Source: Candidatus Eisenbacteria bacterium
GTDB taxonomy: Bacteria; Eisenbacteria; RBG-16-71-46; SZUA-252
Length of the DNA: 64,000 nt
Direction: 5' to 3'
Assembly (NCBI GenBank): GCA_005893275.1
Contig: VBOW01000019.1
Location: 1-64,000 of the forward strand
Below the pieces are notes generated by a model, which saw only the letters and a program-made list of their open reading frames with translations, was not told the DNA's origin and searched no databases. Positions 49,270 to 63,874 of the stretch are shown one piece after another (the first letter of the stretch is position 1; the number at the start of each line of letters is the position of its first letter). The translations under genes and the position numbers were made by a program.

Positions 49270-50154
49270 TTAACGCAGCCGATACTCGAGGCGCGGACCC
49301 GATTGGCTGAGCGCCGGGATGAAGTGTAACTTTTCCTCGAAGAAGTCCATCAGCGACACGCGGCGTCTCTCCTTCCGCACCACGACCGGGCGGCCCTCGA
49401 TGCGGGCCATGCTCGCGGCGAGTTGGATCGCGTCGTTCAAATCCCCCAACCGATCCACGAACCCGTAGTCCAGAGCCTGGTCCCCCGAGAAGATCCTTCC
49501 GTCCGCGTAGGGAAGGATGTCGCGTCGGTCCAGGCTTCGCCCCTCGGAGATCGCGTCCACGAATTGCTCGTACACGTTCGAAAGGACGCCCTGGAGCAGC
49601 TCGCGCTCCTCGAAGCTCATCGGACGGGACATCGATCCGATGTCCTTGAACTTGCCGGTCTTCACGACCTCGAAGCGCAGCCCTACCTTTCGGAAGAGCT
49701 CCTCGGTGTTGGGGAAGCTCATGATCACGCCGATGCTCCCGGTCAGGGTTCCCGGGTTCGATACGATCGAGTCGGCCGCGCAGGCGACATAGTAGGCTCC
49801 GGAGGCCGCCACCCCGCCCATGGACGCCACGACCGGCTTGTCATCCTCCCGGACCTTCCGGACCGCCTCGTAGATCTCTTGCGAAGCCGCGACCCCGCCC
49901 CCGGGGCTATCCAGCCTCAGAACGACCGCGCGCACGCTCGAGTCGCGCCGCATGCGCTCCAGCTGGTCGACGACGCTCTCGGAGGATTCGATATCTCCGA
50001 TGATCTCGACCAGGCCCACGCGCCTGCTCAGCGGCCCGAGGGAGAATCCCTCTTTTTGGAAGGTGAGATTGACGATCAGGAAGGCGAGGCTCACGGTCGC
50101 AACCGTGCCGACGAAGAGGACGGCACAGCCCACGAGCCAGCGTTTCACGGCCAT
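49270..50154 (-). CDS. sppA: Signal peptide peptidase SppA
   Basis: A 294-residue membrane-anchored serine protease degrading cleaved signal peptides. One N-terminal membrane helix (about residues 7-30) precedes the ClpP-like fold. The catalytic Ser lies in GGVAASGAYYVA and the Lys in TGSIGVI-to-KTGKFKDIGS; LRLDSPGGGV is the oxyanion-region motif. It is the short single-domain type found in Gram-positives and many others. GGAG lies 8 bases before the ATG at 50154. It is the first gene after the large non-coding region. Confidence 0.93.
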   Translation of the reverse strand: MAVKRWLVGCAVLFVGTVATVSLAFLIVNLTFQKEGFSLGPLSRRVGLVEIIGDIESSESVVDQLERMRRDSSVRAVVLRLDSPGGGVAASQEIYEAVRKVREDDKPVVASMGGVAASGAYYVACAADSIVSNPGTLTGSIGVIMSFPNTEELFRKVGLRFEVVKTGKFKDIGSMSRPMSFEERELLQGVLSNVYEQFVDAISEGRSLDRRDILPYADGRIFSGDQALDYGFVDRLGDLNDAIQLAASMARIEGRPVVVRKERRRVSLMDFFEEKLHFIPALSQSGPRLEYRLR

Positions 50155-52503: not shown

Positions 52504-52959
52504 TCAATCCTCCTTTCGCCGAGACAAAACCTGTGCCGCTACCGTGCAGACGATCGAAACCGCGCAGGCGAACCACACCGGCGCGATCCAAGGTTTGGGC
52601 ACGAGAAACACGACATCCAAATCCCCCGCATGCGCCGGGAACCCCGTCCAGACCTTGAGAAACACGTAATAGAAGAGATCCCAGAGCCCGAAGACCCACA
52701 GGCCGCGCGCGATCCCCACGCGAAGGGACGGGCGGCCGAGAAATGAGACCGCGCCGATCATGATGAGCGTTGCGATCTCGCGCCATTGCTCGAGCCTCAG
52801 CCCCGGCTCCGGGATGACGTGAAACGGGGGCCCCCACCCCTCGGGGTAATAGAGCCTCTTCAGCGTCACGACGCACGCCGCTTCGACGAACGCCATCGCC
52901 AGGGCGTAGATTGTGAGCGCGATCCACCCCACGCGCCTCCTGGGCGGGACCGTCGTCAC
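52504..52959 (-). CDS. Four-span membrane protein, unknown function
   Basis: A 151-residue integral membrane protein with hydrophobic spans near residues 11-30, 60-78, 83-103 and 121-142. Conserved-looking features include FVEAACVVTLKRLYYPEG between spans 1 and 2 and LWDLFYYVFLKVWTGFP near span 3. I do not recognise the family with confidence. GTG at 52959 overlaps the stop of the lipoate ligase-like gene (GTGA), so the two are coupled. No catalytic motif is evident. Confidence 0.7.
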   Translation of the reverse strand: MTTVPPRRRVGWIALTIYALAMAFVEAACVVTLKRLYYPEGWGPPFHVIPEPGLRLEQWREIATLIMIGAVSFLGRPSLRVGIARGLWVFGLWDLFYYVFLKVWTGFPAHAGDLDVVFLVPKPWIAPVWFACAVSIVCTVAAQVLSRRKED

Positions 52960-53780
52960 AAGCCTCGCGCCCGCGGGCCCGTGAAGACGGCGGGCTCCTC
53001 TTCAAGGCCGAGCATCGAGAACGGAGCCTCGACAAGGCACACCCCGAACCGCGCCGCGACCGCCTCGGCGAGCCGGTCGGCGAGGTCCTGTGCAAGCCGG
53101 TCCGCGAGCCCGGCGGCGTGCGACGGGAAGCCGAGCAGCTCTCCGATCGAGCGCGCGCCGGACGCGAGCGATGCCTCGGCCTGCGCTCCGTCCGACCGGA
53201 AGGAGACGATCTCGCGGTGGCGCGCGGACAGCGGAACCGAGGCATGGCAGAGCGCCCCGGTGCGCGAGAACCGCGAAGCGAGCCCCGCGACCTTGTACCC
53301 CGCGGCCCCGACCTCTCCCGACTCGATGCGGGCGAAGCACGGGGCCTCGCCGGGTCTCGCGGGCGCGGGGCGTGGCGTCGCCGCGTCGACCCGCGCCGCG
53401 TTCACGCCGCATCCGCGAAGCGCTTCGGCCAGCGCCTCGGCCGCCTCGTTCGCGAATCCACGAGGCGTCAAACGCCAGGGTCCCGGGAGGGTCGCCGCAA
53501 GCGCGAAGGTGACCTCCTCCCAATGGAGAACCGCGTTCCCCCCCGTCGGGCGCCGCGCCACGGCGATCCCTTCCCGCGAGAGCGCGCGCTCATCCCACCC
53601 CGCGGGAAAGGGCTCGCTGCGTCCCAGGCTCAAGGTCGGGCGATCCCACCCGTAGGTTCGAAACACGAGCCGCGCGGGCCCCAGCGACACCCAGTCGAGG
53701 AGCGCCGCGTCGGCGGCCATCTGCCAGGATCCGGACGCGAGGCGATGTGGGAGTCGGTAGGCGGCGTGCGGCGCATCCAA
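52956..53780 (-). CDS. Lipoate-protein ligase A family protein
   Basis: A 274-residue BPL/LplA/LipB-fold protein that moves lipoyl or octanoyl groups onto target lysines such as that of GcvH. RRPTGGNAVLHWEEVTFA is the family signature and GYKVAGLASR supplies the expected catalytic lysine. Length suits LplA or LipM without the extra C-terminal domain. Glycine cleavage genes (gcvH, gcvPA, gcvPB) lie about 7 kb upstream in the same orientation, a natural client. The TTG start is uncertain: GGAG is 10 bases away. Ligase and transferase activities cannot be separated by eye. Confidence 0.82.
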   Translation of the reverse strand: MDAPHAAYRLPHRLASGSWQMAADAALLDWVSLGPARLVFRTYGWDRPTLSLGRSEPFPAGWDERALSREGIAVARRPTGGNAVLHWEEVTFALAATLPGPWRLTPRGFANEAAEALAEALRGCGVNAARVDAATPRPAPARPGEAPCFARIESGEVGAAGYKVAGLASRFSRTGALCHASVPLSARHREIVSFRSDGAQAEASLASGARSIGELLGFPSHAAGLADRLAQDLADRLAEAVAARFGVCLVEAPFSMLGLEEEPAVFTGPRARGL

Positions 53781-53795
53781 GGCGAGTGACTCCCG

Positions 53796-54440
53796 CTAGA
53801 GGTGGAGAACCCCCAGCCAGTCGTGGAGGAGAAACATGACGCGGCCGATCAGGAGGGAGATTCGCGCCATCACGGTGTACCCGTACGAGGCGCCGAAGCT
53901 CACCATCAGGAAATAGACCCCCAGCCGCGCCGTTCCTCCCAGCGCTCCTTTGTGCTCCTTCGAGAAGAAGAAAAAGATGAGCGTGCAGAGGAGCCCGACC
54001 ACGAGAAGCCAATTCCCGATCGTGGTCCCCGCATGACCCGGCACCCAGAGCGGAAGAATGGTTCCGTGGACCTGCTCCACGAAGTCCCCCTGTCCGAACC
54101 CCGTGATGCGGAGCGCGGGGTAGACGCCCAGGATGAGCGCGATGGACCACCGAGAGAGCCAGCCTCCCTTCGGGAAGAAGCGCGAGAAGAGCAGGATTCC
54201 GAGCACCAGCGGAATCAGGAGCAGATAGTGCCGGTTTCTCCCAAAGTCGTGGAACAGAGGGTCGAGCAGATTCGGCTTGACGACGGAGTAGTAATTCAGC
54301 ACGACGTAGTATCCGGCCGAGATGCCCACGAACAGGTGCTCGCAGAGCTTGTACGCCGGGTTGTCCTTGTAGAGGAAGCTGAAGATCCCGAGCGTGAGGA
54401 GCGCCGCGATCCAGACTCCGATGTCGTGGCTTAGGTGCAT
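53796..54440 (-). CDS. Six-span membrane protein of the GlmL-linked cluster
   Basis: A 214-residue polytopic membrane protein with about six spans and a conserved-looking loop FLYKDNPAYKLCEHLFVG near the N-terminus. The C-terminus ends in a short amphipathic tail (HDWLGVLHL). The ATG at 54440 has a purine-rich AGAGGTAGGGG upstream; longer in-frame starts give low-complexity sequence. It begins 8 bases after the preceding cluster gene. I recognise no catalytic motif. It is the last member of the eight-gene set described under findings. Confidence 0.75.
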   Translation of the reverse strand: MHLSHDIGVWIAALLTLGIFSFLYKDNPAYKLCEHLFVGISAGYYVVLNYYSVVKPNLLDPLFHDFGRNRHYLLLIPLVLGILLFSRFFPKGGWLSRWSIALILGVYPALRITGFGQGDFVEQVHGTILPLWVPGHAGTTIGNWLLVVGLLCTLIFFFFSKEHKGALGGTARLGVYFLMVSFGASYGYTVMARISLLIGRVMFLLHDWLGVLHL

Positions 54441-54448
54441 GGCCGCCC

Positions 54449-55282
54449 CTACCTCTTCTCCGCCGATCGCTGCGGCAGGACGGCGAGATTGCCGAGAAGG
54501 ATCATGAAGGCGATGAACACGTGGGCGAGGGATTGGGCGTCCATCCCGTGGGTCGCGAGCCCCGGATGGCTCACGAGGACCTCGTACTCCGCCGCACCCG
54601 CCATCCCCCCCAGGAGCCCCTGGAGCTGTCCCGCCTGCAAGTAGGGGTAATACTCGGGCGCGCTCACCGCGGTGACCCCGGCCACCATCGGCACGTGGTA
54701 CCGCGATACGATCTGCTGCACCCATTCCTTGGTCCCGGGGAAACCCGCGCTGATGCTCACGAGGAGCGCGATCTGGCTGAAGTTCTCGATGCCCTTCATG
54801 ACCGGGATCCGGCTCACCGGAATGCCCCGGCGGTCGGCCGGAAACGTGCGCGGGATACTGCTCCCCATTTGCGACATGACGACTTCGTTTCCCGACTTGA
54901 ACCCGAGGTTCACGTAATCGTAGCTCTCGCGCTTGTGATACTCCTCGCCCGCGATGTGCAGGACGCGATCGGCGAGGGGCGGACCCCCGGGATAGAGCTC
55001 GACGGCGATGATCTTGATGTTCCGCGCCATGAGATGCCGGGCGGCGGCCAGGTGCATCGGATAGTTTTCGGCGATCGTGCCGGGATCGTAGTCTCCGGCG
55101 AGGAGCACCGTCGCGCCCGCCGGCAGCCGCTCGATCGCGTCGAAGAAGCCGCGGGAGGGAGGGCTCGGCTTGACCGGCGCGATGTGGAACCCGGTCAGGA
55201 GCGGCACCACGACGAGTAGACCGATCGCCAGGAAGATCCAGCGCCGGTCCAGACGGCGGAGATCCGCGAGCGACGGGCTCAC
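54449..55282 (-). CDS. Membrane-anchored Rossmann-like protein of the GlmL-linked cluster
   Basis: A 277-residue protein with a membrane helix near residues 13-32 and a second near residues 253-272. Between them is an alpha/beta domain beginning ATVLLAGDYDPGT and continuing IKIIAVELYPGG, which looks like a Rossmann-type fold facing the non-cytoplasmic side. GSSIPRTFPADRRG near the middle is unusual and may be a binding loop. The GTG overlaps the stop of the preceding gene (GTGA), with GGGGAGGG upstream. Function unknown. Confidence 0.72.
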   Translation of the reverse strand: MSPSLADLRRLDRRWIFLAIGLLVVVPLLTGFHIAPVKPSPPSRGFFDAIERLPAGATVLLAGDYDPGTIAENYPMHLAAARHLMARNIKIIAVELYPGGPPLADRVLHIAGEEYHKRESYDYVNLGFKSGNEVVMSQMGSSIPRTFPADRRGIPVSRIPVMKGIENFSQIALLVSISAGFPGTKEWVQQIVSRYHVPMVAGVTAVSAPEYYPYLQAGQLQGLLGGMAGAAEYEVLVSHPGLATHGMDAQSLAHVFIAFMILLGNLAVLPQRSAEKR

Positions 55283-55917
55283 GTGCCCTCCCCTTCCGAG
55301 CCGTACGTCCGCTCGATCCCGAGGATGATCCGAAAGCCGGTGGCCATCACGCCCAGCGCGGCCCCCATGAGGATTCCGCGCTTGGCGGCGTTCTGCGGAA
55401 CGTTCATGAGCCATTCCGCCGCCTGAGGCAGGATCGGATGGATCGCGTTGCCGATCGGGACCCGCCCGAGCATCAGGATGAACGCGGCCACCGCGAGCAG
55501 GAGCGCCTCGAACGTGCGGACGCGGAACGCCCGGAACGCGGCCGACGCGATGAAGAACGCGAGGAGCGAAAACATGGTTGCGGACATGGCGGAGTAGAAG
55601 GTGTTGTAGATCCAGGAGAAGCGCGTCCCGTCGTTCAGGTATTTCGTTCCTTCCGAGAAACCCACCGCCATCGTGATCAGGACCCCGGCCACGAGCGCGA
55701 CCTTGTAGGGCCAGTCCCTCGAGCGCGCGCCGATCTGCTTCAAGTTGATCCGCATCACATTGGCCATGCCGAGAACGTAGGTGAAGGCCACGACGATGAT
55801 CACCCACTGCTGGATGTCGTCGTAGGTCGTTCGGATCGCGGGGTGCGGGACGAAGAAGCCGATGAGCACGAAGATTCCGGCCGCCATGGAGATGAGACGA
55901 GGGATTTCGCGCTTCAT
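55279..55917 (-). CDS. Polytopic membrane protein of the GlmL-linked cluster
   Basis: A 212-residue membrane protein with six or so spans. A short basic N-terminus precedes span 1 (ISMAAGIFVLIGFFV). Loops carry MRINLKQIGARSRDWPYK and a GTRFSWIYNTFYSAM segment before span 4. No enzymatic motif is seen. It is linked by GTGA overlap to the Rossmann-like gene and lies 10 bases after the DUF6754-like gene. Probably a structural part of a membrane complex. Confidence 0.72.
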   Translation of the reverse strand: MKREIPRLISMAAGIFVLIGFFVPHPAIRTTYDDIQQWVIIVVAFTYVLGMANVMRINLKQIGARSRDWPYKVALVAGVLITMAVGFSEGTKYLNDGTRFSWIYNTFYSAMSATMFSLLAFFIASAAFRAFRVRTFEALLLAVAAFILMLGRVPIGNAIHPILPQAAEWLMNVPQNAAKRGILMGAALGVMATGFRIILGIERTYGSEGEGT

Positions 55918-55927
55918 GGCTCCGCCC

Positions 55928-57073
55928 TCATTGGGTGGCGAAGAACTCCGCCAGCCAGGAATGGCCCATGGCCAGGAGCACGGATCCGACCACGATCGTG
56001 ATGACGAGGAGGATCTTCACCGTGTCCGAGGCCTTGAGGCTTCCGAGAAGCTTCGCGTCCTTCGAGAGGTACGCGCTCGCCGCGTAGTACTCTTCACCGA
56101 TGAGGGTGTAATCGCACGCGACGACAAAGAAGGGGAGCTGGTGAACGTTCGCGGTGCCGGCGATCTGGATCGCCCCGATCTCGTGCCCTGTTTCGGCCAG
56201 GAGGAGGGATTCGGCAAAGAAGGCGCCCAGGAACAGGTTCGCCGCCGGCCGCTCGCGAAGCATGATCCCGTTCACCGCGGCGACGTACGCGAACTGCTCG
56301 GTGGTGATGTACCGCACCTGGTCCGACCGGTAGGCGTCGATCTTGCCCACGTCGGAGTAGGCGCCCTTCACCACCTCGTCCGCCACGGTGTACACGGCGG
56401 GAGAGGGGGTCGGCACCAGGAACGGCGTCTCGTACTTGGCGGCCATGCGTGCGACATTTCCGAGGATGATCATGCTCGCGATCGTCTGGATGTCGTCGAT
56501 GTCCTGGACTCCGGGCACGTAGAGAACGCCCTTCCCCATCTCGGTCGACCGCCCGATCGCCTCCTCGATCGCGTTGAGTCCTGCGATGGTTCGGAACGTC
56601 CACTTCTTCCCGCGCTCGGCCTGCGAGATGTAGTAGAGCACCAGCCCGAAAAAGAGGACGATCACGGCCGCCACGTTTGTTTTCGCCGTATCGAACCAGC
56701 TCGGACGCGCCGTCGCGGGCGGCGACTCGTCGGAACGGAAGCCCGTCTCAGCCAGCGCCGCGAGCCTGTACCGGTAGGGGACGCCGTTCCGGGCCGTCTC
56801 GTCCGTAAAGGCAGCCTGGTCCCCGCCGATCGTGTCGATCGGGGCGAAGGGCTTCCCCGGCTCGGAGCGAAGCACGACCCACTGGGCCGGCGGGTTGGGA
56901 GGCGGGCGCCAGCTCAGCGCGATCCTCGCGCCGCCGTCGTTGGGAATATCCGCCGCCTGGAGGGGAAACGCCGTCAGAGCGGATGGGAAAAGAACGAGGG
57001 ATAGAGCGAGAATCGAGGCTGCGGCGTTCGTCGCGCGGCCCAACGGGAATCGCGCGGGCGGCGTCAGCGGCAT
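55928..57073 (-). CDS. DUF6754-like membrane protein with an extracytoplasmic Fn3-like domain
   Basis: A 381-residue protein. An N-terminal signal/anchor helix (about residues 13-37) precedes a short beta domain resembling fibronectin type III (IALSWRPPPNPPAQWVVLRS, then YRYRLAALAE). A transmembrane helix near residues 125-145 follows, then a large soluble domain (IAGLNAIEEAIGRSTEMGKG, YVPGVQDIDDIQTIASM), and a last helix near the C-terminus. The soluble part matches the DUF6754 pattern as I remember it. ATG at 57073 has GGAG 6 bases upstream. Function unknown. Confidence 0.7.
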   Translation of the reverse strand: MPLTPPARFPLGRATNAAASILALSLVLFPSALTAFPLQAADIPNDGGARIALSWRPPPNPPAQWVVLRSEPGKPFAPIDTIGGDQAAFTDETARNGVPYRYRLAALAETGFRSDESPPATARPSWFDTAKTNVAAVIVLFFGLVLYYISQAERGKKWTFRTIAGLNAIEEAIGRSTEMGKGVLYVPGVQDIDDIQTIASMIILGNVARMAAKYETPFLVPTPSPAVYTVADEVVKGAYSDVGKIDAYRSDQVRYITTEQFAYVAAVNGIMLRERPAANLFLGAFFAESLLLAETGHEIGAIQIAGTANVHQLPFFVVACDYTLIGEEYYAASAYLSKDAKLLGSLKASDTVKILLVITIVVGSVLLAMGHSWLAEFFATQ

Positions 57074-57214
57074 CCAGTCTCCGCCGCGCGGGAGCGGCAT
57101 GCCGGGAATCGGGCCGAGGCGAACACGCCGATGCGGATCCTCATGGGTTGGACCGGCGATTGGGCTGACCCGAACGGTAGGCGGAAGGCCCATCGATGTC
57201 AAGCCGCAAGCGGC

Positions 57215-58342
57215 TCACGACTCGATCATTTCGACGTTCGCGCGCGGAAGGAGCACCCGCGACCCGTTGCCGAAATCGACCTCGAGGACGCGCACCTTTG
57301 CCTCGGTCTCCAGCGGCATCAGCTCGGGCGGGAGCGCCGTGACCCGGCCGATCCTCCCGAAATAGGGTTGGCGGATGACCCGGACGGTGTCCCCCGGCTT
57401 GAGCCCTTCCTCCACCGAGCTGTCGCCTCCGTCGCGGGGCGACCCCTCATCGAGACGCGGTGCCACGATCTCCGGCCGGAGTACGCCCGCGCGGATCTGC
57501 GTCGCGCCGCTCACGGACACGCGCCGGCCCTCGCACGAGCGAAGAAGGTCGAACGTCCGGGCGGCCATCGGGATCGAGCCGAACCCCTCCGTGACGATGA
57601 GCGTGATCCCGATCTCCTCCGAGCCCGTAATGGCGACCCCCAGGTCGTACCCCAGGAGCTCTCTCAAGTCGTGATCGTCGAATCCGCCGATGACCACCGC
57701 CTTGACCCCGTGCGCGATCGCCTTGCGAAGGACGGCCGTGGTGACGTACGCGCCCCCCACGAGGATCTTTCCGCGGCACGGCTCCCCGATCGCCTTTTCG
57801 TCGAGCGGCTCGCCCGGATTCGGGGCGCACACGCGAAGCTCCCCGCACGCTTCGCCTCCCACGCCGAAGATGCCTTGGATGAAGGTGCCCTGCGTCTCCA
57901 CCGTGACGCCCGAATTGGGATGGATCTCGGCGATCGTCCCGTCGACGTAGGCGTCCACTTCGACGGGGATCGGCTCCTCGCGCAGGAGGACCTGCCCGGT
58001 GACCTTCGAGACACTTTCGATCGTGCCCCGGACCGGAGCGTGGACCTTGGAGCGGAAGAGCCCGAAGAAGGAACGGCTCTCGGCGAAGACTTCTCCCTTG
58101 TCGATCTTCGAGCCGGGGGGTTTGGTGAGGCATTCCTCGACGTCCTCCGGCAGCACGCCCAGGAGGTTCGCCACGTTCACCGTCTGCACGTTCCCGGGCA
58201 GCTCGGTCCGCGCGACGATGGTTTCCGCGGCGACCCGCTGGCCCAGGGAGACGAGCACCTCGCCGGGAAGCGGGAGCTTTCGCTCGCGCGCGAGCTTGGT
58301 GAACGACGAGACCTTGAGCCCCGGCGTGTAGGAGTGCGCCAC
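57215..58342 (-). CDS. Sandwich-hybrid/KOW protein of the GlmL-linked cluster
   Basis: A 375-residue soluble protein. Two segments look like halves of barrel-sandwich (lipoyl-type) domains: LPGEVLVSLGQRV near residue 25 and KVHAPVRGTIESV near residue 100. A middle alpha/beta region includes GVKAVVIGGFDDHDL and TLIVTEGFGSIPM. The C-terminus is a KOW/SH3 module (LKPGDTVRVIRQPYFGRIG). No cysteine clusters or Walker motifs are seen. GTG start; 3 bases after the GlmL-like stop. It may be an adaptor that binds the ATPase or a nucleic acid, but nothing decides this. Confidence 0.72.
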   Translation of the reverse strand: MAHSYTPGLKVSSFTKLARERKLPLPGEVLVSLGQRVAAETIVARTELPGNVQTVNVANLLGVLPEDVEECLTKPPGSKIDKGEVFAESRSFFGLFRSKVHAPVRGTIESVSKVTGQVLLREEPIPVEVDAYVDGTIAEIHPNSGVTVETQGTFIQGIFGVGGEACGELRVCAPNPGEPLDEKAIGEPCRGKILVGGAYVTTAVLRKAIAHGVKAVVIGGFDDHDLRELLGYDLGVAITGSEEIGITLIVTEGFGSIPMAARTFDLLRSCEGRRVSVSGATQIRAGVLRPEIVAPRLDEGSPRDGGDSSVEEGLKPGDTVRVIRQPYFGRIGRVTALPPELMPLETEAKVRVLEVDFGNGSRVLLPRANVEMIES

Positions 58343-58345
58343 GGC

Positions 58346-60208
58346 TCAGGCCCTCGCCGCCAGCGGCGCCAGCTCCCCCACCGAGACCTTCGAGGCGTCT
58401 CGGGGCGGGTAGATCCCGAGCGCCTCGTTCCACTGGTTCAGCTTCGCGATTCGCGCCGGGCGCGCCTCGGGAAGGCGAAACGGCTGGCGGCCGCGGCAAT
58501 CGAAGACGAGCCCCACCACGCCCCCCTTGAGCGAGACCACGCGCTCTCTCCCTTTGCCTTCCCCGACGTCGAGCCCCTTCTCCGGGCGGAGCGACGCCTT
58601 GGCGGTCTCCCCCAGGCCGAGCGGAACGAGACGCAAGGACCCGTACGGAATCGAGAACTCCTCGGTCTTCCCGCCCGGGAGCGTGAGGGTCACGCGGAGC
58701 GCGGTCGTCGCCTCCTTTCCGGGCCCGACCGGCGCGACGCTGCTCCCCAGGCGGATCAAACAGTCCTTCTCGAACACCTCCTTGGCGGCCCGCGGGTGCA
58801 CGGTCGACAGCACGCCGAGCTGAGGCATCATGAATATCGAATCGACCGCGAGCTCCGTGATGTGCTCCGGAAGGAAGGCGTCGAGCATCATGAGCGCGGC
58901 CTGAGCGCGGCGCGGCGCGTGCGATAGGACCCCGCCGCTTCCGACGAGGAGATCCAGGTGATCGAGGCGGACCAACGTCTCGCCGCTCGCCGTCTGCTCG
59001 AATGTGTCGGAGATCGTGCGCTCCTGCTGCACGCCTTTCAGCCCCACCGCGAGCGATTTGTGCTGCTCGAAGGCGAGCCGGAGGGCCTCCCGCGCGATCG
59101 CCTGCTCGATGATGAGCTCCTCGAGCGACTGGGGAATCGTGGTCGGGCGGATCATCTTGTTCTTGATCCGGTTTCTCAGATCGCGCTCCTCGATCTCGAA
59201 GGGGACCCATCGCAAGATGTTCGGGAGCCCCGCTTCCGCGAGCACGTTGGAGACGCTGTAGCTCATTCCGAGATTCGCGCTCACCGTTCGGTTGAAGACC
59301 CCCTGGAACACCGAGAAGACGTCGGTCGTGGCGCCCCCGATATCGACGCCGATGACCTGGATCCCCTCTTCCCGCGCGATGGTCTCGATGATGAGCCCAA
59401 CCGCACCCGGCGTCGGCATGATCGGGACCGGGGTCCAGGTCATGAGCTTCCGGTAGCCGGGGGCGTGCGCCATGACATGCTCCATGAAGAGATCGTGGAT
59501 CTTGTCTCGGGCCGGGCCCAGGTTCTCGCGCTCGAGCACCGGCCGGAGGTTTTCGGTGATCACGAGGGCGACCTTCTTTCCCAGCCGCTCGCGTACGATG
59601 TCGACCGCGTTCTTGTTCCCGGCGTAGATCACCGGAAGCTCGTAGCCGGCGCCGAGCCGCGCCTTGGGATCGGCGGCGGCGAGAAGCTCGGCCATCTCGG
59701 CTACGTGGGACGTGGTGCCTCCGTCCACCCCCCCCGAGAGGAGGATCATGTCGGGCCTCAGATGGCGGATCCGCTTGATCTTCTGGTGCGGGAGCCGTCC
59801 GTCGTTGCTCGCGATCACGTCCATCACGATGGCCCCCGCGCCCAGCGCCGCGCGCTGGGCGCTCTCGCCGGTCATGCTCTTCACGACGCCGGAAACCATC
59901 ATCTGGAGCCCGCCTCCGGCGCTCGACGTGGAGAGGTACAGGTCCACCCCCTCGCCACCGCGCTGGGGCGTGAGGATCCGCTCCCCGTCCAGGATCTTCC
60001 GCCCGGCAAGCTCCTCCACTTCCATGATCGCGTTCAGCACGCCTCGTGTGACGTCCTCGAACGGCGCTTCGACCGTGGTCGGCGCTTCCCCTCGGACGAT
60101 GAGCCGGTACTCCGGCCCGCGCTTCTCGATCAGGATCGCTTTCGTGGTGGTGCTGCCGCAATCGGTCGCGAGAATGGAGTTCAAGGTTTCGGGGTCGATC
60201 GAAGTCAC
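58346..60208 (-). CDS. MutL/GlmL-family ASKHA ATPase
   Basis: A 620-residue protein of the glutamate mutase L family, an ASKHA (actin/Hsp70-like) fold. Phosphate-1 motif TDCGSTTTKAILIE near residue 15 and VDIGGATTDVFSV near residue 285 are typical; LLSGGVDGGTT and VGSGGVLSHAP also fit. GlmL is thought to protect or reactivate B12-dependent glutamate mutase, but no mutase subunit is in this window. It is not the DNA mismatch-repair MutL. The GTG overlaps the following gene's stop as GTGA, and membrane genes follow, suggesting a different client. Confidence 0.85.
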   Translation of the reverse strand: MTSIDPETLNSILATDCGSTTTKAILIEKRGPEYRLIVRGEAPTTVEAPFEDVTRGVLNAIMEVEELAGRKILDGERILTPQRGGEGVDLYLSTSSAGGGLQMMVSGVVKSMTGESAQRAALGAGAIVMDVIASNDGRLPHQKIKRIRHLRPDMILLSGGVDGGTTSHVAEMAELLAAADPKARLGAGYELPVIYAGNKNAVDIVRERLGKKVALVITENLRPVLERENLGPARDKIHDLFMEHVMAHAPGYRKLMTWTPVPIMPTPGAVGLIIETIAREEGIQVIGVDIGGATTDVFSVFQGVFNRTVSANLGMSYSVSNVLAEAGLPNILRWVPFEIEERDLRNRIKNKMIRPTTIPQSLEELIIEQAIAREALRLAFEQHKSLAVGLKGVQQERTISDTFEQTASGETLVRLDHLDLLVGSGGVLSHAPRRAQAALMMLDAFLPEHITELAVDSIFMMPQLGVLSTVHPRAAKEVFEKDCLIRLGSSVAPVGPGKEATTALRVTLTLPGGKTEEFSIPYGSLRLVPLGLGETAKASLRPEKGLDVGEGKGRERVVSLKGGVVGLVFDCRGRQPFRLPEARPARIAKLNQWNEALGIYPPRDASKVSVGELAPLAARA

Positions 60209-60591
60209 GGACGTTCCTTTCCCCGCTTGCGCGCACGGCGCTCCGCACGGTCGCGCTCGCGCTGCTCCGCTTCGCGCGCCCGGGCCTCGTCGTCGCGCGC
60301 CTCGATCCTGACGAGCAGCGCCTCGAGGTTTTCGCGCCGCTCCATCAGGAGCGCGAAGCGCTCGTAATCCTGAACGTTGAAAAAGGCCCGCACCATCGGT
60401 TCGAAAAAGTGAAGCGCCTGGCTCCCAAGGAACGAGAGCGGTTTCACGCTCTCGAGAAAGAAGATGGCCGGAACCGTCATGCGGTGGCGGACGATCAGGA
60501 CCGCGAGGCGGTCCAGGAGCGCCTCATCTTCCGGCGCTCGGGGCGGACGCTTTTCGCCGTCCTTGGCCCCGGCGCCCGGACCCGGGCTCAC
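60205..60591 (-). CDS. Small charged protein of the GlmL-linked cluster
   Basis: A 128-residue protein if GTG at 60591 is used; a TTG at 60630 would add 13 residues. A conserved-looking central patch VPAIFFLESVKPLSFLGSQ is followed by LHFFEPMV, then a long charged coiled coil (REAEQRERDRAERRARKRG). The first half overlaps the previous gene by 68 bases, so the true start may be shorter. The pattern suggests a peripheral membrane or adaptor protein. Function unknown. It overlaps the GlmL-like start (GTGA). Confidence 0.6.
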   Translation of the reverse strand: MSPGPGAGAKDGEKRPPRAPEDEALLDRLAVLIVRHRMTVPAIFFLESVKPLSFLGSQALHFFEPMVRAFFNVQDYERFALLMERRENLEALLVRIEARDDEARAREAEQRERDRAERRARKRGKERP

Positions 60592-61042
60592 CCCCGTCTT
60601 CGACGGAGGTTTTGAGCTTCGATTCCACAAACGCCACGACCCGATCTCGATTTCCTCCGAAGGGAAGCCGCACGCCGCGGTACGCCTCGAGCCAGCTTCG
60701 CTTCTCGAAGGGGCTCAGAAAGACCCCGTTCCGGTCGAGGGTCGCGCGCCGCATTTCGGCCCACGGCCTCGTCCTCACGACCCCGAGCGTCCTCACCTCG
60801 ATCGCGTCGGGCGTGAGCCGGTACTCGGTTTTCGCAATGAAGGAGCCGACCGATCCAAGCACAAAGAGCGGGGCCGCCACCCCCAGGACCCGGTCGCCGG
60901 TCCCGTGCGCGATCACAACCCCGAGCACGACAAGCGAGGCCAGCAGCACGGCCGCCGCCCAAGGTTTCTCCCGCGCCGGCCAGACGGACCATTCGAGCGA
61001 ACCCGCCGCGCCAGGGGGGACGCTCCGCTCAGGCTCCGCCAC
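60524..61042 (-). CDS. Two-span membrane protein with a bacterial PH-like domain
   Basis: A 172-residue protein with two membrane spans (about residues 27-46 and 51-68), then a beta domain beginning TEYRLTPDAIEVRTLGVVRT that fits the bacterial pleckstrin-homology pattern. Its C-terminal tail is Gly/Arg-rich. The GTG overlaps the end of gcvPB by 14 bases, so the cluster is joined transcriptionally to the glycine cleavage genes. It probably anchors or senses at the inner membrane; no ligand can be assigned. Confidence 0.68.
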   Translation of the reverse strand: MAEPERSVPPGAAGSLEWSVWPAREKPWAAAVLLASLVVLGVVIAHGTGDRVLGVAAPLFVLGSVGSFIAKTEYRLTPDAIEVRTLGVVRTRPWAEMRRATLDRNGVFLSPFEKRSWLEAYRGVRLPFGGNRDRVVAFVESKLKTSVEDGGEPGSGRRGQGRRKASAPSAGR

Positions 61043-62498
61043 CCTCGGCCTCGAGGTCCCGCCACGTCAGCGTCAGCTTCCGCGCCGCGCGCGCCTCGTC
61101 CAAACGCTTGACCGGCGTCTTCGTCGGCGCGCGCTTCACCAGCTCCGGATCCTCTTTCGTCTCGCGGTCGATTGCGAGGAGCACGTCCGCGAAGGCGTCC
61201 AGGCTCGCCTTGGTCTCCGTTTCGGTCGGCTCGATCATCAACGCCTCGTCGACGATCAGCGGGAAATAGGTCGTGGGAGCGTGCATTCCGAAATCCAGGA
61301 TCCGCTTCGCCAGATCCAGGGCCCGCACGCCCCGCGCTTTCTGGCGCGTGGCCGAGAGAACGAACTCGTGCATGCAGAAGCCCTCGTGCGACGGGTCGTA
61401 CGCTTCCTTGAGCCGGGCCTTGAGGTAGTTCGCGTTCACGATGGCCTCGCGGCTCACCTCCGCGAGACCCTCCGCGCCCAGGCTCTTCACATAGCAAAGC
61501 GCCCGCACGACCATCCCGAAATTGCCGTAATAGGAGTGGACCCGGCCGATCGAGCGCGGCCGGTCGTAGTTCCACCGGTACCGGTCTCCCACCCGTTCCA
61601 GAACGGGGGCGGGAAGGTAGGGCGCGAGATCCTCACGCACGCAGAGCACTCCGCCTCCCGGCCCGCCGCCGCCGTGCGGCGTGGAAAAGGTCTTGTGGAG
61701 GTTGATGTGCGCGAAGTCGAATCCCATCGAGCCCGGATTCGCGAGCCCGACCATCGCGTTCAGATTCGCGCCGTCCAGGTAGAGCAGGCCGCCGGCGGCG
61801 TGCACGATCCGCGCGATCTCACCCACGTTGCGCTCGAAGATCCCGAGCGTGTTCGGGTTCGTGAGCATGAGCGCCGCCGTTTTTCCGGAGACCCCACGTT
61901 TCAACGCCTCGATATCCACGCAGCCGTCGGGACCCGAGGGAACCGTCACGGCCCGGTACCCGACCTGGTTCACCGTGGAAGGATTCGTGCCATGCGCCGA
62001 ATCGGGCACGATCACCTCCTCGCGGGGATCACCGCGTTCCGCATGATAGGCACGGGTCATGAGGATCGCGGTCAGCTCGCACTGAGCGCCGGCCGCCGGC
62101 TGCGTGGTGACCGCGGGCATCCCCATGATGACCTTCAACCGCTCGTGAAGCTCCCATACAACCGCCAACGCGCCTTGGGAGAGCTCCTCGGATTGGAGGG
62201 GATGGATCGCTTGAAGTCCCGGCATTTGAGCTACTTCGTCGTTCAGCTTCGGGTTGTACTTCATGGTGCAGGACCCTAGCGGATAGATGGCCTTGTCGAT
62301 GTGATGGTTCAGCACCGAGAGGTTGACGAAGTGGCGCACGGCGGCCGGCTCCGAAATCTCCGGAAGCGCGGGGGGCTCGCCCCGCAGCCGCTCACGCGGC
62401 AGAAGCCGTTCGGCACCTTCGGCCGGGATGTCCAGCGGTCCGAGCCTGGGGCCGCGGTGCCCCTTCACCGAGAGCTCGCGCAGCGTCAGCTCCGGCAC
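61029..62498 (-). CDS. gcvPB: Glycine dehydrogenase (decarboxylating) subunit 2
   Basis: A 489-residue PLP-dependent P-protein half that decarboxylates glycine and loads the aminomethyl group onto GcvH lipoate. The PLP lysine lies in HINLHKTFSTPHGGGGPG; YPLGSCTMKYNPK and PDSAHGTNPS are conserved substrate and PLP contacts. GTG at 62498 is the start, with GGAGGAGG upstream, and overlaps gcvPA by 13 bases. With gcvPA it forms the split bacterial P-protein. Confidence 0.95.
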   Translation of the reverse strand: MPELTLRELSVKGHRGPRLGPLDIPAEGAERLLPRERLRGEPPALPEISEPAAVRHFVNLSVLNHHIDKAIYPLGSCTMKYNPKLNDEVAQMPGLQAIHPLQSEELSQGALAVVWELHERLKVIMGMPAVTTQPAAGAQCELTAILMTRAYHAERGDPREEVIVPDSAHGTNPSTVNQVGYRAVTVPSGPDGCVDIEALKRGVSGKTAALMLTNPNTLGIFERNVGEIARIVHAAGGLLYLDGANLNAMVGLANPGSMGFDFAHINLHKTFSTPHGGGGPGGGVLCVREDLAPYLPAPVLERVGDRYRWNYDRPRSIGRVHSYYGNFGMVVRALCYVKSLGAEGLAEVSREAIVNANYLKARLKEAYDPSHEGFCMHEFVLSATRQKARGVRALDLAKRILDFGMHAPTTYFPLIVDEALMIEPTETETKASLDAFADVLLAIDRETKEDPELVKRAPTKTPVKRLDEARAARKLTLTWRDLEAEGGGA

Positions 62499-63874
62499 GC
62501 GGCCTCCTCCACCGGCTTCGGGGCCGGATGCCGCGCCCATTCCGCGAGCGCCTCGACGTAGCGATCCATCTCCTCGCGCGTTCGCTTCTCGGTGGCCGCC
62601 ACCAGAAGGTCCCGGGACCGCGCGCGATCGAATCGGGAAAGAGGAACCCCCGCCAGAATGCGCCGCTTCTCGGCCGCGTGGAGGAAATCGGTCGCGGGTC
62701 CGGGCAAGCGCAGCACGAATTCGCGGAAGTAGGGTGCGTCCCCGTTGGCCAGCGAAACTCCGGGCACCTGGGCCGCGCGCCGCGCGAGGTAGTGTGCCTT
62801 CTCCAAGGATTGCGTCGCGACGTCGCGCATGCCCTGCGCGCCGAGGAGCGCCAGGTGGATGGTGTTGGCGAGCGCCATCAGACCTTGGTTCGTGCAGATG
62901 TTCGAGGTAGCGCGCTCGCGGCGGATGTGTTGCTCGCGGGTCTGAAGCGTGAGCACGAACCCGCGGCGCCCGTCCTGGTCGACGGTGGCGCCGGCGAGCC
63001 GGCCCGGCAGCCGCCGCACGTCCGCCTTTCGGATCGAAAAGAAACCGACGAGCGGGCCTCCGTACCCCATGGGAACGCCGAGCGGCTGGCCCTCTCCGAC
63101 GACGATGTCGGCCCCGTCGCGTCCCGGAGGCTGGAGCAGCGCCAGCGCGACCGGGTCCGCGACCGCGATCGAATACGCCCCGGCCGCGTGGGCGGCCTGG
63201 GTGAGCGCGGCTCCGTCCTCGACGATCCCTTCGAAGTTCGGCTGCGCCCAGAGCACCGCCGCGACTTCCGGCGAGAGCATGCGCTCGAGCGCCGCCCCCG
63301 GGGTGACTCCCTGCTCCAGGGGAAGATCGCGCACGTCGAACGAGCCCGCCGACGCGTACGTTCGAAGCACCTCGCGGAAATGGGGATGAGCTCCTTGGGA
63401 GACGAGCACGACGCGCCGGCCGGTCGCGCCGGTCGCCAGGTGAGCCGCCTCCGCGCACGCGGTCGCGCCGTCGTACATGGAGGCATTGGCGACCTCCATT
63501 CCGGTCAGCTCACAGATCATCGACTGGTACTCGAAGATGGTTTGGAGCGTTCCCTGGGAAACCTCCGGCTGGTACGGCGTGTAGGCTGTCGCGAACTCCG
63601 ATCGAGACGTGAGGGAACGGACCGCGGCCGGGATGAAGTGGTCGTAGATCCCGGCGCCGAGGAAGCAGGCGTAATGATTCGCGTCCGCGTTCGCCTCGGC
63701 CCATTGCGCGAACCGGCGCGTGATCTCGTACTCGGCGAGCGGCGGATCGAGCGGCAGCGGGCCCTGGACCCGGAACTCGGGCGGAATCGACGCCCACAAC
63801 GCTTCGGCGCTCTCGGCGCCGATCGTACGCAGCATGTCGCGGCGCTCCGCCTCGCTTCGCCCGACGAAGCTCAT
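62486..63874 (-). CDS. gcvPA: Glycine dehydrogenase (decarboxylating) subunit 1
   Basis: A 462-residue partner of gcvPB, the non-PLP-binding half of the P-protein. FLGAGIYDHFIPAAVRSL and AYTPYQPEVSQGTLQ near residues 70-110 are highly typical, as is NICTNQGLMALA later. ATG at 63874 overlaps the gcvH stop (ATGA). Length is normal (about 450). Confidence 0.95.
   Translation of the reverse strand: MSFVGRSEAERRDMLRTIGAESAEALWASIPPEFRVQGPLPLDPPLAEYEITRRFAQWAEANADANHYACFLGAGIYDHFIPAAVRSLTSRSEFATAYTPYQPEVSQGTLQTIFEYQSMICELTGMEVANASMYDGATACAEAAHLATGATGRRVVLVSQGAHPHFREVLRTYASAGSFDVRDLPLEQGVTPGAALERMLSPEVAAVLWAQPNFEGIVEDGAALTQAAHAAGAYSIAVADPVALALLQPPGRDGADIVVGEGQPLGVPMGYGGPLVGFFSIRKADVRRLPGRLAGATVDQDGRRGFVLTLQTREQHIRRERATSNICTNQGLMALANTIHLALLGAQGMRDVATQSLEKAHYLARRAAQVPGVSLANGDAPYFREFVLRLPGPATDFLHAAEKRRILAGVPLSRFDRARSRDLLVAATEKRTREEMDRYVEALAEWARHPAPKPVEEAACRS

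Follow-up and report, generated by a model that had tools for sequence, protein, structure and literature searches.

A MutL/GlmL-family ASKHA ATPase, an adaptor and a DUF6754 membrane quartet belong to one undescribed system spread over little-studied bacterial phyla

Eight adjacent genes in an Eisenbacteria genome, among them one for an ATPase of the MutL/GlmL family, encode components that constitute one system, a conclusion well supported by the genome-wide co-occurrence of the parts. This machine is spread over many little-studied bacterial phyla, and its ATPase is kin to an enzyme-repair factor and no longer tied to that enzyme. How the system works is a more balanced question: we give an even chance to a model in which a shared motor of the ATPase g3 and the adaptor g4 docks on membrane quartets (g5-g6-g7-g8) via the DUF6754 domain and powers conformational changes in them, with transport as the likeliest purpose. 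The features of the array within the window (the whole 64,000-nt stretch of DNA analysed) are as follows.

62486..63874, minus strand: gcvPA, glycine decarboxylase subunit 1 (Pfam GDC-P, E 1e-124)
61029..62450, minus strand: gcvPB, glycine decarboxylase subunit 2, start approximate (Pfam GcvP2_C, E 4e-26, and GDC-P)
60524..61042, minus strand: g1, two-span protein whose basic C-terminal (PH-like) part is predicted cytosolic; no Pfam match; overlaps the gcvPB stop
60205..60591, minus strand: g2, small conserved protein with the core ...VPAIFFLESVKPLSFLGSQALHFFEPMV... and a charged C-terminus; neighbours g3-g4 or g5-g8
58346..60208, minus strand: g3, ASKHA ATPase of the MutL/GlmL type, bearing a C-terminal domain of ~135 aa (Pfam MutL, 425 bits)
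57215..58342, minus strand: g4, putative adaptor with barrel-sandwich hybrid, RraA-like alpha/beta and KOW/SH3 domains (AlphaFold pLDDT 85.7; Foldseek)
55928..57073, minus strand: g5, signal/TM, FN3 (predicted periplasmic), TM, DUF6754 (predicted cytosolic) and TM (Pfam DUF6754, E 2e-111)
55279..55917, minus strand: g6, quartet member, six-span membrane protein (hydropathy)
54449..55282, minus strand: g7, two TM and a domain of ~215 aa that is predicted to face outwards (hydropathy; no Pfam or PDB relatives)
53796..54440, minus strand: g8, polytopic, 4 strong and ~6 probable spans, final quartet gene (hydropathy)
52956..53780, minus strand: lplA-like lipoate-protein ligase, immediately 3' of g8 (Pfam LplA-B_cat, E 3e-15)

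All eight genes that a first-pass annotation had placed side by side on the minus strand at 53796-61042 were present with their gene calls confirmed, as were the GTGA overlaps it described (at g2/g3 and g6/g7) and its very short gaps (3 nt at g3/g4, 10 nt at g5/g6 and 8 nt at g7/g8). The g4/g5 spacing varies from ~20 to 140 nt with the start codon picked, and an alternative upstream TTG start of g2 is possible at 60630. The array exceeds the eight genes of that annotation, extending to gcvPA-gcvPB upstream, where gcvPB overlaps g1 by 14 nt, and to lplA downstream, 15 nt from g8. Among the family calls made earlier, MutL/GlmL for g3 and DUF6754 for g5 were borne out by Pfam and the sandwich/KOW assignment of g4 by its structural model, and the six spans proposed for g8 are only probable. 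The six genes other than g3 and g5 gave no match above curated cut-offs in Pfam or NCBIfam. Hydropathy analysis gave two hydrophobic segments in g1, three in g5 (a signal and two spans), six in g6, two in g7, and four strong segments together with weaker ones in g8. The named locus closest in g4 belongs to an Eisenbacteria MAG (82% identity in g4), and g1 homologues are located 5' of g2-g3 across many phyla. Beyond the array, an SppA-like S49 peptidase is encoded a few genes 3' (window 49270-50154), and a 151-aa membrane-like ORF at 52504-52959 overlaps the end of lplA. In a genome of 0.9 Mb and 98% completeness (G265; L335), the order g3-g4-g2-g5-g6-g7-g8 is retained right after cdsA-like and diacylglycerol-kinase-like genes.

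GlmL is thought to reactivate glutamate mutase, and the array's ATPase had been read as GlmL-type and, at the same time, as unconnected to that enzyme. The first reading held in part. g3 shares with GlmL and Or-4 the Pfam family (PF13941, E 4e-127) and the ASKHA ATP-binding motifs, which are intact and conserved, but in the comparison with the GlmL and Or-4 models (NF040745, NF040744 and TIGR01319) it scored 228.7 bits against the NCBIfam GlmL equivalog, below the cut-off of 475, and 214 bits where the cut-off is 600. It also carries the extra ~135-aa C-terminal domain, which true GlmL lacks, and its partners are g4 and DUF6754, whereas true GlmL is partnered by mutE. Phylogenetic analysis placed the short forms (true GlmL and Or-4, ~450-510 aa) in one clade (support 100/100), apart from the long and fused forms; g3 is thus in a clade separate from GlmL/Or-4. 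The second reading stands: none of the 47 genomes of the phylum had MutE over the cut-off, and among 252 genomes full-strength MutE never lay beside g3. It was found there in G158, G182, G193 and G285, in each case adjoining a short true GlmL. G193 (L353 and L333) serves as an internal control since it carries two ATPases: contig 25 has the short GlmL with MutE, and contig 19 has the long g3 together with g4 and a quartet. Six genomes had the short form without DUF6754, and none had the long form without it. Profile searches of the PDB with g3, g7 and g8 returned nothing usable.

The distribution of the parts across genomes carries the case for a single system. Within the phylum, MutL was present in 44 of 47 genomes and DUF6754 in 45 of 47. 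Beyond the phylum, g3, g4 and DUF6754 were searched for in a set of 226 genomes that were each at least 90% complete, and this set contained 56 with both g4 and DUF6754, four with DUF6754 alone, none with g4 alone and 166 with neither (Fisher p 9e-49, uncorrected for relatedness); the long-form ATPase scored against DUF6754 gave identical counts. A further 39 genomes were chosen for their g4, which was mostly unlinked, and all 39 had DUF6754, with MutL over the cut-off in 37. Together, the 39-genome and 226-genome counts indicate that the parts co-occur even when their genes are scattered. The exceptions were few: a complete genome (G053; L280) carried an isolated g4 and three DUF6754 genes with no detectable MutL, and may rely on a different ATPase; G115 had DUF6754 and a divergent MutL without g4; and G139, G157 and G282 had DUF6754 only. 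Co-occurrence had been proposed as a check on the first-pass annotation, and the parts do travel together, with gene order and presence kept across many phyla. The pattern that would have spoken for coincidence, an ATPase in the company of mutE/mutS while the other genes scatter, was not what we found, as scattered genes still co-occur genome-wide. The proposal that an undescribed membrane system is what the ATPase works for is upheld by its co-occurrence with g4 and DUF6754.

The AlphaFold model of g4 (pLDDT 85.7) compared by Foldseek showed a barrel-sandwich domain like those of GcvH and biotinyl proteins and a C-terminal KOW/NusG domain, with a middle part modelled as RraA-like alpha/beta. 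Individually, these domains resemble the barrel-sandwich hybrid of GcvH and of the RnfC/NqrA N-terminal domain, the KOW domain of NusG/Spt5 and the RraA fold; g4 differs from GcvH, RnfC, NusG and RraA in that it lacks the lipoyl-lysine feature and its family matches fall under curated cut-offs. No protein outside this system was found to combine these domains. A lipoylated or biotinylated g4 was ruled out, as FxGLF occupies its hairpin and the swinging-arm position lacks a conserved lysine. When a relation to Rnf/Nqr was examined, the RnfC_N match was weak and below cut-off, the rnfC model gave 12 bits against a cut-off of 246, and there was no further Rnf match. HHalign detected no homology between g4 and g7, nor between g5 and g7.

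A second class of MutL protein, of 845-1015 aa, is a natural fusion in which a g4-like part that lacks KOW comes after the MutL domain. The g4 profile matched all eight of the long paralogues examined, and HHalign aligned the two at a probability of 100% with 32% identity over 262 columns. The existence of these fusions shows that the ATPase g3 and the adaptor g4 function together. When 12 such proteins were placed in a tree, the fused forms grouped together (97/91) next to the long form. Their loci (L223, L250, L252-L257 and L354-L359) lie in genomes with several quartets, and fusion-bearing genomes were richer in DUF6754 genes (mean 4.0 vs 1.8, p 6e-4).

The genes g5-g6-g7-g8 are a fixed quartet. 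Their order was conserved in 88 of 92 places, and their evolutionary distances co-varied (r 0.64-0.83), with none of 500 permutations giving values as high. On a quick quartet tree, linkage of the quartet to g3-g4 had switched at least 14 times, which is expected if the link is useful and not obligatory, and g1/g2 accompany g3-g4 in some loci and the quartet in others (L067, L335). Genomes held from one to ten quartets, usually alongside a single g3-g4 pair. DUF6754 was present in one copy in 44 of 86 positive genomes and in two to seven copies in the other 42, with ten in an additional genome; the Eisenbacteria genome itself has one ATPase and three DUF6754 genes. The single eight-gene unit built around the ATPase that had been envisaged at first did not survive these results: the system is modular, with g3-g4 (and g1/g2) as one module and, as the other, an independent quartet whose duplications do not involve the ATPase.

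Within the quartet, the FN3 domain of g5 was recognized both by PDB profile and by Foldseek and was well modelled; the DUF6754 half had pLDDT <50 over much of its length and was too poor for fold assignment. Charge distribution predicted topologies with the g5 FN3 domain and the ~215-aa g7 domain outside and DUF6754 in the cytosol. A search of 22 g7 homologues yielded no consistent Pfam family, and a profile search yielded no PDB relative of g7. With no family match for g6, g7 or g8, homology gives no support for transport. Models of anti-phage systems (PADLOC) gave only a weak generic 2TM match, to g6. DUF6754 proteins of ~940 aa also occur (L332:5904-8735), in which a long N-terminal extension is partly Ig-like by weak match.

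In the model we favour, the eight genes would form a two-part inner-membrane machine. Its first part would be the cytosolic motor of g3 and g4, helped by g1 and g2; in its second part, the quartet, DUF6754 would act as the cytosolic dock, the outer face would carry FN3 and the large domain of g7, and the membrane core would consist of the polytopic proteins g6 and g8. ATP binding and hydrolysis by g3 would be relayed through g4 to DUF6754 and thereby cycle the quartet between conformations; a single motor would work for one or more quartets, and these probably differ in the clients they handle. The model starts from what was observed, namely which components exist and co-occur, that g3 pairs with g4, that the quartet is a unit and that copy numbers are asymmetric. 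From this we infer docking via DUF6754, sharing of the motor and ATP-driven conformational work. That the cycle most likely transports or extrudes an envelope-related substrate is a guess, as is the substrate. The genome without MutL (G053) and the three genomes with DUF6754 alone count against the model.

The closest 'works like' comparison is with the group-II ECF transporters, which combine an ATP-hydrolysing motor with a separate, exchangeable substrate-translocating membrane unit (PMC10368641). The likeness lies in one ATPase with several membrane units, some encoded elsewhere, with physical sharing in the present system putative. The differences are that g3 is an ASKHA and not an ABC ATPase, that four proteins make up the membrane unit here, that there is no sequence relation, and that transport here is a guess; none of the eight genes matched an ABC ATPase or EcfT above cut-off.

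A different reading of the same parts is that g3 acts as a scaffold like PilM or FtsA, its nucleotide state setting the assembly or position of the complex without a power stroke or transport. In PilM-PilN and GspL platforms an actin-like cytosolic protein is bound to small membrane proteins, and the PilM-PilN layout comprises an actin-like protein, an adaptor and bitopic proteins. The ASKHA fold of g3, together with an adaptor and membrane proteins that it would bind, recalls this layout, and the FN3 and outer-face domains suggest envelope architecture. The membrane parts, however, have no homology that we found to those platforms and no recurring pilus or secretion genes nearby, and standalone quartets likewise had no recurrent neighbours, pilus and division genes included. 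A multi-copy quartet with one ATPase also suits a shared motor better, and we consider the scaffold unlikely.

The neighbours of the array bear on two further readings. Upstream of g3, on the same strand and within 3.5 kb, gcvPB was found at 25 of 49 loci (those with g3 and at least 3 kb upstream; a few genomes were counted twice, so the fraction is approximate). These loci came from Eisenbacteria, Fermentibacteria, TA06 and other lineages, with further cases in distant genomes, and in several phyla gcvT-gcvH-gcvPA-gcvPB lies 5' and lplA 3' of the cluster. This linkage reflects either an old operon arrangement or a functional connection. By analogy with GlmL, to which g3 is homologous, g3-g4 might be a chaperone that reactivates an enzyme, either the P-protein of glycine cleavage or a membrane enzyme that g5-g8 would form, and the gcvPB linkage, with lplA 3' in some loci, fits such a role. 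About half of the loci nevertheless have no gcv link, and the obligate partner of g3 is DUF6754. The P-protein uses pyridoxal phosphate as its cofactor, and we know of no need for a reactivase in its case. A reactivase is, on this evidence, rather improbable.

The same linkage could instead indicate a metabolic role and not transport, the complex feeding or draining one-carbon or lipoyl/acyl metabolism at the membrane. The gcv genes upstream and lplA downstream in several phyla point this way, as do the resemblance of the g4 sandwich to GcvH and the occurrence of lipid genes nearby: accA, accD, cdsA and a lipid kinase adjoin in single lineages, and fabD/fabH in unrelated loci. Those lipid neighbours were, however, chosen by eye with no control, the gcv link is absent from Zixibacteria, Poribacteria and most WOR-3 loci, and the FxGLF-bearing sandwich has no swinging-arm lysine. 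We regard a functional link to gcv/lplA as slightly more doubtful still. Separately, lone g4 genes in WOR-3/Stahlbacteria (L102, L106, L107 and others) are followed by a ~290-aa protein and accA, and at L363 a lone g4 is followed by accD; a lipid link is possible for this neighbourhood. That the genes are unrelated chance neighbours, as certain loci with g4 alone might suggest, is contradicted by the whole-genome co-occurrence of scattered parts and by the g3-g4 fusions, and is extremely improbable.

Among the open-access papers searched, DUF6754 was not mentioned, no paper was found describing this gene set, and those on GlmL or 'glutamate mutase L' held nothing relevant; Pfam has the families and not the system. 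That it represents an undescribed class of ASKHA-driven inner-membrane machine (not ABC, P-type or AAA), in which one motor powers several different quartets and which has a central envelope or transport function in numerous uncultured phyla, including a lineage whose genome is 0.9 Mb, we propose only tentatively, at somewhat less than an even chance. If the motor model is true, g3 would, as far as we know, be the first ASKHA-type ATPase shown to power a membrane complex. Many GlmL-family matches are probably unrelated to glutamate mutase, which calls for a correction of annotation; the presence of a GlmL-family protein is therefore not evidence of B12-dependent glutamate fermentation. The conservation of the system suggests that it probably serves a core cell function and, if the motor model is right, it would be an unnamed core system of phyla that include Eisenbacteria, Fermentibacteria, Zixibacteria, WOR-3 and Poribacteria.
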